Below are positions 3,526 to 27,970 of a stretch of 64,000 nucleotides of DNA, one piece after another. The stretch lies in assembly GCA_027459625.1 (NCBI GenBank), contig DAIDHP010000010.1, positions 1-64,000 on the forward strand. The letters are read 5' to 3'. The notes beneath the pieces are model-generated. The model worked only from the letters and a program-made list of their open reading frames with translations, was not told the origin of the DNA and ran no database searches. Position 1 is the first letter of the stretch, and every line of letters starts with the position of its first letter. The DNA comes from Chthonomonadales bacterium (GTDB lineage: Bacteria > Armatimonadota > Chthonomonadetes > Chthonomonadales > CAJBBX01). The translations under genes were made by a program, and so were the position numbers.

Positions 3526-5532
3526 GTGAATTCGCCTCTTCCCGCCCGTCAACCGGACCAGAGCGCTGCGGATGCGCCCGCACCCACCCATACGCCATCT
3601 AAAATATCTGGCTGGCGTTATTTTAGAGTTATCGTACTCGCTCTTCTGATAGCGCCTTTCTGCACCTATTGGGCGTCCGATCAAATCGTGGACCGCATTT
3701 TCTCCTTAATGGTTCCTCCGGTTATGATCACCTTCGCCCTTGTTTTGGTCAATAAGTTGCTCCAGAAATACGCACCCAGGTTCGCTTTTCTGGAAGGCGA
3801 ATTGGTTGTGTTTTATATTATGCAGTCGGTTATATGCGTCATGTCCTCGGAATGGATGGACATGATCAACAATTACATCGTCACCTACGCCATTCGAGCG
3901 CAAAGCGATCCCACGGTTCAAAACCATATTCTGCCATATTTGTCGAAATATCTTTTCTTCACAAACGAAAAGCAATTGCGCGATATCGAGATGGGAGGTT
4001 ACTCGCTTGAGTACACTCTCCAGCATTTGGGGATGTGGTGGCGTCCGATATTGAGTTGGACTTTTATCGTATTCCTTGTCTGTTTTTCCATGCTCTGTAT
4101 TAACAGCCTCATGCGTGATCAGTGGACACGCCGAGAGAAACTCGCTTTCCCGATCATCCAACTACCGATGGCGATGATGGAGGGCGGCGGGAGGTCTACG
4201 TTCTGGCGAAACAGGTATATGTGGGGCGGCTTCATTGTCATGGCGATTCTGGATTTGCTTAATGGCTTCCACTATCTTTATCCCTCGCTACCATGGATCA
4301 ATCTACGATTTATCGGAGATATGTCTCAATGGCTGCCCAACCCGCCATGGAACGCAATCGGGTGGACACCCATCGGGCTGTTTCCGTTTATCTCCGCACT
4401 GGGTGTTTTCATGCCCACCGACCTTCTCTTCTCATGCATCTTTTTCTTCTTCTTTAGAAAGATGGAGCTTGTAACCATTGCGGCATTCGGTGTGCAACAG
4501 GGTGAAGGCGGCGGAGGGGGGCTCGTCCCCGGTCCACCATACTTAAGCGAACAATCCTGGGGTGCTTTCATCGGACTATTCCTCAGCGCTCTGTTTGTGT
4601 CGCGAGGTTACCTAAAGGAGATTTGGGAGGAGATTGTAAAGGGTACGCGCCGAAAGGGGGAACTCTCCCACCGCTTCATTTTCGTCGGATTGCTGCTGAG
4701 TATGATCGGATTGGGTTGGGTGGGGGTGTCCATCGGACTGCCGTTCCTATTGGTTATCGGTTATCTTTGTCTCTATTTGGTGTTCGCAATTGCGGTGACG
4801 CGGCTTCGCGCTCAGTTAGGCGCACCCACTCACGAGATGGCGTTTATGGGGCCGAACCAGATGATCGTTGATTTCGCGGGAACTCAGAACCTTTCCGAAG
4901 CCACCATCACACATGTGGTTACGACATTCTATTTCATGAATCGTATTCACAGGGATGACCCAATGCCATCCCAGCTTGAATCCATGAAAATGGGGGAGAC
5001 AAGCGGCGTCAATCAGATGTTGATATTTTTTGTGATTGTTGGGGCGACTATTGTAGGCACCATACTCGCGCATATCACTCGCATTTACTTGAACTACCAC
5101 CTTGGATATGGCACTTGGGGCGGAGGCGCGGGTTTTGGCACGGGCACGGTTGGTACGATTTCCAGCTTACTTAACAATCGCCATCCCGCAAACCCGGTTG
5201 CCATTTCGGCGGTGTTGGCGGGGCTGTTGGTAGTGATCGCATTGGATTTCATCCGGTTCCGTTACTCGGGTTTCCCATTGCATCCCGCAGGCTACGCGCT
5301 CGCTATGAATTTCGGCTTGGATTATTACTGGACCGGGTTATTGGCTGTGCTGATAATCAAGGTGTTCGTGACTCACTATTACGGGCTGAAGGGGTACGAT
5401 AAAATGCGCAATGTTGCGCTTGGGGTGATCCTCGGGGAGTTCGTCGTGGAGACCATTTGGGCGGTGATGGCGATGTACACCGGGCATTCCACCTATTCCA
5501 TTTCCATTAACGACAGGCTTTGGGGACTATAA
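3526..5532 (+). CDS. DUF6785/DUF6784-like polytopic membrane protein
   Basis: The product has 668 aa, a hydrophilic proline/alanine-rich N-terminus of about 25 residues and roughly 12-14 hydrophobic segments. It matches my recollection of the large DUF6785/DUF6784 membrane family, common in Armatimonadota and Planctomycetes and vaguely reminiscent of oligopeptide transporters. Conserved-looking stretches include FLEGELVVFYIMQSV, a loop with WLPNPPWNAIGWTPIG, and the glycine-rich GTWGGGAGFGTGTVG near the end. The GTG start at 3526 has GGAAAGGG about 10 nt upstream. The function is not established; next to an exported glycosidase, a solute-transport role is a reasonable guess only. Confidence 0.7.
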   Translation: MNSPLPARQPDQSAADAPAPTHTPSKISGWRYFRVIVLALLIAPFCTYWASDQIVDRIFSLMVPPVMITFALVLVNKLLQKYAPRFAFLEGELVVFYIMQSVICVMSSEWMDMINNYIVTYAIRAQSDPTVQNHILPYLSKYLFFTNEKQLRDIEMGGYSLEYTLQHLGMWWRPILSWTFIVFLVCFSMLCINSLMRDQWTRREKLAFPIIQLPMAMMEGGGRSTFWRNRYMWGGFIVMAILDLLNGFHYLYPSLPWINLRFIGDMSQWLPNPPWNAIGWTPIGLFPFISALGVFMPTDLLFSCIFFFFFRKMELVTIAAFGVQQGEGGGGGLVPGPPYLSEQSWGAFIGLFLSALFVSRGYLKEIWEEIVKGTRRKGELSHRFIFVGLLLSMIGLGWVGVSIGLPFLLVIGYLCLYLVFAIAVTRLRAQLGAPTHEMAFMGPNQMIVDFAGTQNLSEATITHVVTTFYFMNRIHRDDPMPSQLESMKMGETSGVNQMLIFFVIVGATIVGTILAHITRIYLNYHLGYGTWGGGAGFGTGTVGTISSLLNNRHPANPVAISAVLAGLLVVIALDFIRFRYSGFPLHPAGYALAMNFGLDYYWTGLLAVLIIKVFVTHYYGLKGYDKMRNVALGVILGEFVVETIWAVMAMYTGHSTYSISINDRLWGL

Positions 5533-17071: not shown

Positions 17072-17407
17072 TCAATCCACGCTTTCGGTGTTTGAGGTGC
17101 CCCCCGTTTGGATAATCGCGTAGCTCTTCTCAATAATCCTCCGAAAACTCTCCCCCGTTCTCGCCCAATCCAGCATATCCACGCGGTAGGGAAGATCGGA
17201 TTCGGTGAACGCCTCCTTCAATTCTATCAATTTGAGTATGGGGAGAGGAGTTTCCGTCATTGCGACCAGATCAATATCGGAAGTGGGGCGGGAGTTTCCA
17301 TTCACCCGTGAACCGAATACGCGCACCTCAAATTCGGGCACGTGTTGATTAAGGATTTCCATGATCATTTCCAACTCAGCAGGGGTGACATCAATCGGAT
17401 TCCGCAT
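17072..17407 (-). CDS. MntA-like minimal nucleotidyltransferase (antitoxin-type)
   Basis: The MNT motif is intact: FGSRVNGNSRPTSDIDL, that is GS, ten residues, then D-x-D. Such proteins pair with HepT-like (HI0074) partners and can adenylylate the partner toxin. The longest ORF starts at 17431, but GGAGGAGAA directly precedes the ATG at 17407, giving MRNPIDVTPAE and 111 aa. That start overlaps the end of the upstream HepT-like gene by 17 bp, the usual coupled arrangement. The partner gene is damaged, so whether this protein still has a function is open. Confidence 0.8.
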   Translation of the reverse strand: MRNPIDVTPAELEMIMEILNQHVPEFEVRVFGSRVNGNSRPTSDIDLVAMTETPLPILKLIELKEAFTESDLPYRVDMLDWARTGESFRRIIEKSYAIIQTGGTSNTESVD

Positions 17408-17657
17408 TTCTCCTCCGAAGCTGATCCACAAGATAGTCCATATCCTTTAGAAAATCATCCACCACAGAGATCACTTCCTCCGCGCTGGATTCCTCATATG
17501 TAAGCGAGGTGATATTCCGCATTTCTCGATAGATCATGAATTTGACGGGGTCTCTTATTATTCCCGCATCCGCTGCCGCTCTCATCAGATCACGGAACGC
17601 CAATCCAAAATCGTTATCCGAACAGGGAATTGCAAAATTCGCTTTTAAGATATCCAA
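17391..17657 (-). pseudogene. HepT-like/HI0074 nucleotidyltransferase partner, 5'-truncated by a palindromic element
   Basis: The C-terminal half of the HI0074/HepT fold is present (AFRDLMRAAADAG, then IYREMRNITSLTYEE, where family members show RN-x-x-x-H/L-x-Y-(D/E)-E). About 45-50 N-terminal residues expected from the family, including the first helix pair, are missing. The first residues of the ORF (ILKANFAI) are encoded inside the 87-bp palindromic element at 17624-17710, and the TTG start lies within it with a stop just before. I found no detached N-terminal piece on the far side of the element. The family's R-x4-6-H toxin motif is not intact here (S-L-T-Y instead of an HTY-like sequence). 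Confidence 0.65.
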
Positions 17658-17710
17658 TCAAGCGTGAGATGAACTCAATTCGCCTCATTTTCCGAATTTT
17701 GCAATTACCT
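17624..17710. repeat. MITE-like palindromic element, copy 1
   Basis: The 87-bp element has 17-bp terminal inverted repeats, AGGGAATTGCAAAATTC and GAATTTTGCAATTACCT, with one mismatch between them. A second copy of the same length lies at 27421-27507 in the opposite orientation; the two share the termini and blocks such as GAAAATGAGGC and AAAAGCG. It carries no coding capacity of its own, and this copy lies across the 5' end of the HepT-like gene. Confidence 0.85.
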
Positions 17711-17793
17711 CCGAATATTGAAACAGAGGCGTATAAAAAACGTCTATAGTATTAATGCAAGGATAATTCCATCCCTCAAGGAGGGTTGAATAG

Positions 17794-25051: not shown

Positions 25052-27376
25052 CTAATACTCCCACAGGATCAACTGGCGCGGATTGAGCCTTATTTTATCT
25101 TCATACCGCTTTCCGGTGATGATGTCTTGAAATGATTTATCGCCTTTGGGAAGCGTCGGGAAAACCGTTTGGGTTTCGCGCATAAGATTGACGAGATATG
25201 CGTATCGTCTCCCTCCGTCCACGGTGGTGCGCCCCTCCACGCCCCATGCGGGTTCACCTCGCTCATCCAAGACGCGGATTTCACAAACGACCCCGGCTCC
25301 GCGCATCATCCTCTCAAATTGGGGATGATACCGCTGAGGAGAGGAGATATCCAGATATTCCGTCCCCTCAAGTTGATGGGACTGGCGCAACACTCCGGTA
25401 GGCTCTCTCTTGAAACAGTCCTTGCCGATGGCGCACACGGTTACTCCCTTGCCAATCGCTTCCCGCAAGCGCGGCGCCGTAGTGTCCTGAGAGTATTGCG
25501 CATTCGGTGCGACAATTAATCTCGTATCCGTATGTGCGCCACTCTCAGCCAACTGTTTCTCGGTCAGGAATCCTATGGGGACGCCAAGAAAATTCAGCGC
25601 CTCGTAGGCATCGCGTAAAACGTCGAGATAATGAACATCCTGTATCGCCGACGCTTCCGAATAGAGCAGCTTCACCTGGCGGGGCAGTTGTGCGAAGGAG
25701 GATACGGGACGGACAAAGCGGCGCAGGTTCAGATTTGTGCGCACATAACCGTGCATCATCCAGGGTTGCTGCAACGCCGACCCTTTGAACCACCCCGCCC
25801 CTTGCCCTGCAATCGAGCCATCCGCATTACGCCCCCAATACCATAGAAGGTGCGCGGACATTCCGTGCAGATGCGCCAGCCACAACGCCAATTCGATGTG
25901 CGCCTTCGCATCCTCCTCGTCGCCGGGGGCGGTGTCGTCATCGGTTACGTGAAACTCGGAGTTATGGAAGGGCTTTTCAGGCTGAAGGGATTTCAGGAAA
26001 TCCGCCGACATGCCGGCGTCCAGCCACCCGCAGATATAGGGAACGGAGCCGAAACGGCGGTTGGGGTTCGCCACATGGGATAAATCCATCAGGTCCAAGT
26101 CCCCCCCGAGCAGACTGCACGCCTTGGAGATATACTCCTGATCGATTCCGTAGGTGTGGTAGGACAGGTTCATTGTCCAACCGCGTGGTTCCACGCTGCC
26201 CATGAAGTAGGAGCCCATCATCACCTTCACATGTGTCGCCACATGCGAGTCTTTCGCGTGAAGACGATCCGATAGGTCTTTGAAATAGGCTCCAATGCGT
26301 TCATTGTTGAACGCACACCAGTCATATAGCTTTCCGCGCATCCCGGGTTGGCTGAAGTCCACATTCCCCCTCTCCCACCATATGCCGGATTTGGGGACCA
26401 GCGCCGCAGGGTGATCCTTGATTTCCTTCCAATCGCCGATGGTGACACCCCAAGCATTGCTCAATTTCTCAAGTTCGCCGTACTTGGCTCTAAGCCAATC
26501 GCGCCACAACTCCATGAGGATATCCGATGTCCCTTGGAATGCCGGTTCGTTAGCGAGGTCCACGGCGAAGAAGGAGCGATTTTTATCGTAGAGCGGGGTG
26601 AAATGATCTATGAATTCATGACGATACTTGATATCCATTGGGTCTTCCAGCACATAGTCGTCGCCATTGCCGTATCCGGGACTTCTCAGTGAGGGATATT
26701 TACCGAACATCCATTCCGGCGGCTCATCGCCTAGGAGACAATCCACCGGGATGCCCGTATTGGACATCCGCTGCATATATGCGCCATCCCCCGCAAGCCA
26801 ACCGGCGTCATCAAAAGAGCCATTCGGATTCATATTCCCGCGAAACATTCCATCCGCCAGCGTGAACCCTAATCTGTGGAAAACGGACGGATTTCTGTTC
26901 GCCAAAGTCGCATCCCAGTTCAGCCCGCAGAGGAATACCGGCTGGTTGCCGCTCCAAAACCGCCCGTTCCTCCATGTCACGCCAAGCGTTGTCCATTTGG
27001 GAATTTTGGGATAGGCGGCTTCATGATTTAGCGTCCTGTTCACGGATTTGATCTCTTCGTCTAGCATTGAGAGTATGTAGCGCATGGATAGAAGGGCTGG
27101 TTCCGCTAAATCCTTATTCTCGGCGTCGCTGCGAGAGAAACGGCAAAACAGTTCGCCTAACGCAAGGGAACTGTCCGGCATGGCGATGTCCTCTCCCCCC
27201 TCCTCGCATGCGCGTAACCGATTTCGCAGGATGTCGCATCTGTTTTCCGCCTCCGCGACGAGGCTAAGTAACTGAGTGCGGATATCCGTTGGTTGGGCGT
27301 TCAGCTTCGTGACCGCCGCAAGGGCTAATGTTTGTATTCCCTGAGTGATTAATTCCCTTCGTGTGAGGATACCCAT
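25052..27376 (-). CDS. Tat-exported clan GH-A glycosidase, GH42/GH5-like (putative beta-galactosidase type)
   Basis: After a Tat-like start (MGILTRREL, ending near LNAQ) and a helical region, a TIM barrel has acid/base candidate ANEPAFQ (Glu277 from this start) and nucleophile candidate HNSEFHVTDDD (Glu474). It is followed by an A4-like flavodoxin-type domain (VKLLYSEASAIQDVHYL, LIVAPNAQYSQDT) and a small beta domain. This order is that of GH42 beta-galactosidases, although the barrel is divergent. GGAGAG precedes the ATG at 27376; the ORF start at 27409 has none. The palindromic element copy 2 lies 45 bp upstream of the start. Confidence 0.75.
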   Translation of the reverse strand: MGILTRRELITQGIQTLALAAVTKLNAQPTDIRTQLLSLVAEAENRCDILRNRLRACEEGGEDIAMPDSSLALGELFCRFSRSDAENKDLAEPALLSMRYILSMLDEEIKSVNRTLNHEAAYPKIPKWTTLGVTWRNGRFWSGNQPVFLCGLNWDATLANRNPSVFHRLGFTLADGMFRGNMNPNGSFDDAGWLAGDGAYMQRMSNTGIPVDCLLGDEPPEWMFGKYPSLRSPGYGNGDDYVLEDPMDIKYRHEFIDHFTPLYDKNRSFFAVDLANEPAFQGTSDILMELWRDWLRAKYGELEKLSNAWGVTIGDWKEIKDHPAALVPKSGIWWERGNVDFSQPGMRGKLYDWCAFNNERIGAYFKDLSDRLHAKDSHVATHVKVMMGSYFMGSVEPRGWTMNLSYHTYGIDQEYISKACSLLGGDLDLMDLSHVANPNRRFGSVPYICGWLDAGMSADFLKSLQPEKPFHNSEFHVTDDDTAPGDEEDAKAHIELALWLAHLHGMSAHLLWYWGRNADGSIAGQGAGWFKGSALQQPWMMHGYVRTNLNLRRFVRPVSSFAQLPRQVKLLYSEASAIQDVHYLDVLRDAYEALNFLGVPIGFLTEKQLAESGAHTDTRLIVAPNAQYSQDTTAPRLREAIGKGVTVCAIGKDCFKREPTGVLRQSHQLEGTEYLDISSPQRYHPQFERMMRGAGVVCEIRVLDERGEPAWGVEGRTTVDGGRRYAYLVNLMRETQTVFPTLPKGDKSFQDIITGKRYEDKIRLNPRQLILWEY

Positions 27377-27420
27377 GGCGCTCTCCGCGTTATTTGAATT
27401 ACGCATCATTAAATCAATAG

Positions 27421-27507
27421 AGGTAATTGCAAAATTCAGAAAATGAGGCTAATATCGCTCATTTCATACTCGGCGAAATACCTGAAAAGCGAATTTTGCA
27501 ATTACCT
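27421..27507. repeat. MITE-like palindromic element, copy 2
   Basis: This 87-bp element has perfect 17-bp terminal inverted repeats, AGGTAATTGCAAAATTC and GAATTTTGCAATTACCT. It matches copy 1 at 17624-17710 in length and termini but is inverted relative to it. It sits in the presumed 5' region of the GH42-like gene, where it could supply or disturb regulatory signals. No clear target duplication is visible at either copy. Confidence 0.85.
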
Positions 27508-27970
27508 GAATATCCCAAAACTTTGACGCTATGTATTTTATGTTCCCAACCGTTTAACTGGTGAATCTTGAATGCATTCTCTTTGAATTCATCGTGGCAT
27601 GTTTGTAATCATAATACCGGATACATATCGAGGATCGGGTGTGGCACAGGATAGAAATGCCTGTGACTGCTTGATATGATGTACGAAAATGTCGATATGT
27701 TGTTTCGTTGGAAATATCAGCGTGGACGCCCATGCGAATTAAATCCATTATTTTCACGCACCGTGTCTCAGCCGATACCCCGATAGTCCGCGTGGAAGTC
27801 CTGTGACGCCCTGAAGGATACGCTTTTATTTGAGCCTATGGATGGATTACTACAATCTGTTCGATTGGCCGGGTCCGATGATAACATAGAAAAGCTAGTG
27901 CAAATGGGCGCAACTCGTGGTAATCTGAAAATGTGGCAATTCAATCGTATTATCAACCAAAAGGCGCAGC
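27508..27970. other. Non-coding stretch between element copy 2 and the beta-helix gene
   Basis: The minus-strand ORFs here (67 and 62 codons) have no recognisable domain or ribosome-binding site. On the plus strand a 53-codon frame from ATG 27838 (MDGLLQSVRLAGSDDNIEKL) resembles an ankyrin-like helix pair. It overlaps the next gene, so a decayed gene fragment is possible. Nothing else is identified. Confidence 0.4.

Follow-up and report, generated by a model that had tools for sequence, protein, structure and literature searches.

Non-autonomous elements (MITEs) paired with IS1182-family insertion sequences (ISs) have been described in Methanosarcina acetivorans, in which the ISMac2 MITEs are 160-169 bp in length, occur in 7-14 copies and carry 25-26-bp inverted ends, one of the two sets being listed with a 4-bp duplication (PMC3852290). 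ISPse1, also of the IS1182 family, has 16-bp inverted ends and a 4-bp duplication (PMC3281130), whilst the Correia elements of Neisseria and ERIC, which are short intergenic palindromic MITEs, number from tens to hundreds in a genome (PMC10969869). The window analysed here, a 64-kb stretch of a 4.55-Mb Armatimonadota assembly of 114 contigs (G000), contains two copies of an element that resembles the ISMac2 MITEs in being non-autonomous and paired with a probable IS1182-family element, but differs from them in its length of 89 bp, its copy number of at least 131, its ends and its unrelated host. It shares with Correia and ERIC the character of a short intergenic palindromic MITE at high copy number, although end sequences and sizes differ and effects on transcripts are known for Correia and ERIC. 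Given that both IS1182-derived MITEs (ISMac2) and 4-bp duplications (ISPse1) are on record, the kind of element is already known; the 89-bp family is a new, probably IS1182-derived, example of it, distinguished by its copy number and wide range of ages. A literature search retrieved no report of a MITE from the Armatimonadota.

An earlier note on this DNA had described two 87-bp units in opposite orientation, with 17-bp inverted arms and common internal blocks, and alignment of the two slices confirmed both units at their places, with ends and internal blocks conserved. Searching the window for the arm GGTAATTGCAAAATTC at up to three mismatches returned six matches against 0.94 expected (maximum of 3 in 100 shuffles), four of which were the arms of copies 1 and 2 (Table 1). 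The equal length of the units was also borne out, but the figure of 87 bp was one base too short at each end: an extra terminal base, C...C in the orientation of copy 1, was present in 31 of 35 young copies, giving an 89-bp element. Related ISs of other phyla end in GAGCCTCTTGCAAAA, GAGGGAATTGCAAAAC or GAGGTAATTGCAAAACC, with the common end motif ...TTGCAAAA, and several of them show 4-bp duplications, which supports assigning the terminal base to the element. The duplication length of 4 bp agrees between the MITE, several related ISs and ISPse1; a simple scan of Rhodothermales IS relatives found no common terminal repeat.

Table 1. Coordinates of the two MITE copies, their target-site duplications and inverted arms in the window
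Feature	Position	Strand	Basis
MITE copy 1, 89 bp, subfamily with interior AAGATATCCAATCAAGCGTGAGATGAACTCAATTCGCC	17623..17711	+	model R1, 97.3 bits, positions 1-89
Target-site duplication CGAA, left of copy 1	17619..17622	.	sequence; family statistic
Target-site duplication CGAA, right of copy 1	17712..17715	.	sequence; family statistic
Left inverted arm of copy 1, AGGGAATTGCAAAATTC, 1 mismatch	17624..17640	+	sequence; arm search
Right inverted arm of copy 1	17694..17710	-	sequence; arm search
MITE copy 2, 89 bp, young subfamily A, 99% identity to consensus	27420..27508	-	model; empty orthologous site in G001
Target-site duplication AATA, left of copy 2	27416..27419	.	sequence; single AATA at empty G001 site
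Target-site duplication AATA, right of copy 2	27509..27512	.	sequence; single AATA at empty G001 site
Inverted arm of copy 2, AGGTAATTGCAAAATTC	27421..27437	+	sequence; arm search
Inverted arm of copy 2	27491..27507	-	sequence; arm search

Redrawing the boundaries overturned the statement that neither copy has a clear target-site duplication, as perfect 4-bp direct repeats flank both 89-bp copies. An exact 4-bp repeat lies immediately outside the 89-bp unit in 24 of the 35 young copies, compared with an average of 2.0 and at most 7 in 5000 shuffles, and at no other offset tested did more than two of these 35 copies carry one. The same flank test at the 87-bp boundaries detected a 4-bp repeat in no copy, which explains why the duplications had been missed. 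At least two (L032 and L034) of the 11 young copies without an exact repeat at the set boundary carry a 5-6 bp repeat instead. The exact repeats fade with age, remaining in 6 of 23 middle-aged and 5 of 79 old copies. The boundaries and 4-bp duplications were thus established directly.

Across the whole of G000 the arm was matched 233 times at up to two mismatches, compared with once for the reversed control. At E <= 0.01, a covariance model trained on 16 copies located at least 131 in G000, and a genus mate (G001) has 129. The dispersed copies and flanking duplications proposed for checking in the earlier note were both found. The G000 figure is a lower bound, because the best 150 candidates alone were scored, and also because contigs end inside copies (the start of C66 and the end of C30), indicating that the assembly breaks at the repeat. 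Copies are mostly 85-92 bp long and encode no protein. Identity to the consensus is at least 95% for 25 G000 copies, 90-95% for one and 60-90% for the remainder, hence there is a recent burst of approximately 25 copies atop a large older set of approximately 100. Copy 2 is a member of this burst, whilst copy 1 falls in a second, small subfamily. That the element is active in this genome, as had been proposed, holds for the recent past, in that six G000 copies at different sites are identical; no intact transposase accompanies them in the assembly.

Comparison with G001 revealed empty sites in both directions. At the copy-2 site G001 reads CTTAAATCAATATCCC, whereas the window reads ATTAAATCAATA, the 89-bp element and AATATCCC, such that AATA occurs once without the element and twice with it. 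Several G001 copies are reciprocally absent from the orthologous G000 places, for instance L352 (duplication AATA) and L354 (CTTA); empty sites and lineage-specific insertions were therefore directly observed. The attributes of a MITE were consequently all present in this family: a length of less than 500 bp, no coding capacity, terminal inverted repeats, target-site duplications at young copies, dispersed copies and insertion polymorphism. In a single case, G001 has CTCA, the 89-bp element and CTCA (L372, ~1083-1173) where G000 has CTCACTCA (L078), a difference that could be an excision footprint pointing to cut-and-paste movement. In 34 cases an old copy has its counterpart at the corresponding place in the other genome. 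The region of copy 1 is more diverged in G001, which retains ACCTCCGAAT beside the right flank. The young G000 copy L039 (C31) appears to occupy a site at which the G001 copy is more diverged (L320; C8:25912-26000), which may reflect gene conversion between copies or else repeated insertion at the one place.

A transposase with matching ends, the remaining check proposed in the earlier note, was also found, in an IS1182-type IS that shares 15-17-bp ends with the MITE and is decayed in G000. The DDE_Tnp_1 gene on C211 of G001 sits in a 1398-bp IS that starts with GAGGTAATTGCAAAAT, ends with TTTTGCAATTACCTG and has a single in-frame stop. When this transposase was used as a query, G000 yielded a 1427-bp IS with both ends, a stop and frameshifts (C7), a 985-bp IS with both ends and an internal deletion (C27), and a fragment (C3). 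The right ends of the C7 and C27 copies contain the full 17-bp MITE arm, and the MITE ends, (C/G)AGGTAATTGCAAAATTC, match those of this IS1182-type IS (~1.4 kb). Similarity between the MITE interior and the IS was weak and present at one end alone (20 comparisons, uncorrected), and an exact 4-bp duplication was absent at all three IS copies in the two genomes. Neither the transposase search nor the domain search of the G000 assembly found an intact gene, the former recovering no intact IS1182 partner and the latter no DDE_Tnp_1 gene at threshold. Two other DDE_Tnp_1 genes of G001 (C119 and C214) were rejected as partners as their ends do not match.

The partner transposase comprises DUF772 and DDE_Tnp_1 domains, and its best annotated plasmid relatives are labelled IS1182 family; the NCBIfam IS1182 and IS5 models match it below their curated cut-offs. 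ISUnCu17-type transposases are ~39% identical to it, but unlike ISUnCu17 and ISPse1 the MITE lacks a transposase, and the IS copies of G000 and G001 have stops, frameshifts or deletions. The decayed C7 (L178) and C27 (L189) copies have a common extra stretch, TTATGAGAAAACTTGTTTT..., in the transposase gene relative to G001, so an already defective IS may itself have been copied in trans in G000.

The arm search covered 81 genomes, with many arms found in G001 and in G017 of the same order (81 arm matches), and zero or few in most others. A relative slightly shorter than 100 bp occurs in two further members of the order, G023 and G026, and in G026 it has a 4-bp duplication (ACTA); one-mismatch arm loci in G022 and G025 were rejected as elements, having no paired second arm. 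Among the matches listed, the G017 arms have the form GGTAATTGCAAAA(G/C)TC and some pairs are ~180-250 bp apart; transposase fragments are also present in G017, and these arm pairs probably delimit longer MITEs that belong to the same group of ISs. A second palindromic family, with ends TCGGCAATTAAATA, gave 52 arm matches in G001, mostly in pairs 64 bp apart (for example L339, ~4429-4524), six in G000 and none in the 64-kb window. One G000 pair lies 912 bp apart (C18:10003-10914), and the interval might hold the autonomous partner of this second family.

Only 9 of 135 copies lie inside open reading frames of at least 150 aa, compared with 60% of random positions, and the other 126 lie outside, as expected if insertions into genes are purged. 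Beside copy 1, an NTase_sub_bind (HEPN-like) gene (17391-17657, minus strand) aligns with profile positions 65-125 alone; it lacks its 5' part, its reading frame starts inside the MITE copy, and G001 has further sequence in place of the missing part. The gene at 17072-17431 encodes the nucleotidyltransferase paired with this neighbour. Copy 2 is situated some 10 bp upstream of the start codon of a GH42-like gene (25052-27409).

Intergenic placement, together with the strong propensity of individual copies to fold into hairpins (z of roughly -4.4 to -5.3), might instead suggest that the copies are functional RNA or DNA hairpins, such as terminators, attenuators or protein sites, whose likeness reflects selection for function and not movement. 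Compensated arm changes in old G000 copies, at approximately twice the number seen in shuffles, were considered as a sign of such selection; this count is biased, however, the copies having been found by a model that rewards pairing, and comparison of the 34 orthologous old copies did not bear it out, with one compensatory change among 600 arm-pair cells and 79 paired in one genome alone. Between the two genomes the interior of these copies diverges by 15.3%, faster than the adjacent 60 bp (9.5%) or sequence farther away (7.9%), and their arms by 8-11%, a figure biased downward because the copies were found by their arms. Old orthologues hence decay without compensatory pairing changes, which makes a conserved hairpin function appear unlikely, and with empty sites in the sister species and no matching family in an Rfam search, we consider function as the explanation of the family very improbable.

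The REP-like alternative raised in the earlier note, in which a RAYT, a single-stranded-DNA transposase of IS200/IS605 type, mobilises two inverted REP sequences (a REPIN), would equally accommodate short palindromic intergenic units at high copy number. It is contradicted by the 4-bp target duplications, the clean empty site and the match of the ends to a DDE-type IS; REPINs are not known to produce target duplications, and we give this alternative almost no credence. The other proposal of that note, a non-autonomous element, was upheld by the copy number, duplications, reciprocal empty sites and an IS with common ends in the same genome. More weight attaches to the possibility that the MITE was moved by a transposase other than the IS1182 copies found, whether of another family or acquired and then lost, since six MITE copies are identical although the G000 assembly holds no intact IS1182 transposase, and the assemblies are fragmented, with contig ends inside copies. 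The end sequence, the terminal G and the 4-bp duplication nevertheless all fit the IS1182 group, and a G000 search for DDE_Tnp_1 genes yielded none at threshold; this too is improbable.

We therefore favour, as very probable, an 89-bp MITE mobilised in trans by an IS1182-type transposase, although the G000 assembly has no intact transposase. The supplier would be the decayed IS1182-type IS or a close unassembled relative, from which the MITE may have originated by internal deletion. According to this model, the transposase (DDE; DUF772 and DDE_Tnp_1) would act in trans, recognising the MITE ends and moving the 89-bp unit into short A+T-rich targets, where a staggered 4-bp cut would be made and its repair would duplicate 4 bp; we infer that movement is by cut-and-paste. 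Copies landing in genes would be lost, whilst intergenic copies would persist and then decay. A more speculative and rather doubtful idea is that the MITE has outlived its helper: each sister genome would have had a separate recent burst, whilst the IS1182 copies found in it are broken, and the MITE may persist through re-mobilisation by horizontally acquired IS1182-type transposases, a repeated use that would keep its 89-bp length and ends.

The 89-bp family leaves knowledge of the mechanism unchanged. It does provide a clean system for the study of bacterial MITEs, in which the partner family is defined, the boundaries are exact, empty sites occur reciprocally in two sister genomes and the copies vary widely in age. 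Its recognition is of use in annotation, as the copies break assemblies and can pass for gene starts or RNA hairpins, and the system is useful for measuring the spread and decay of such elements.
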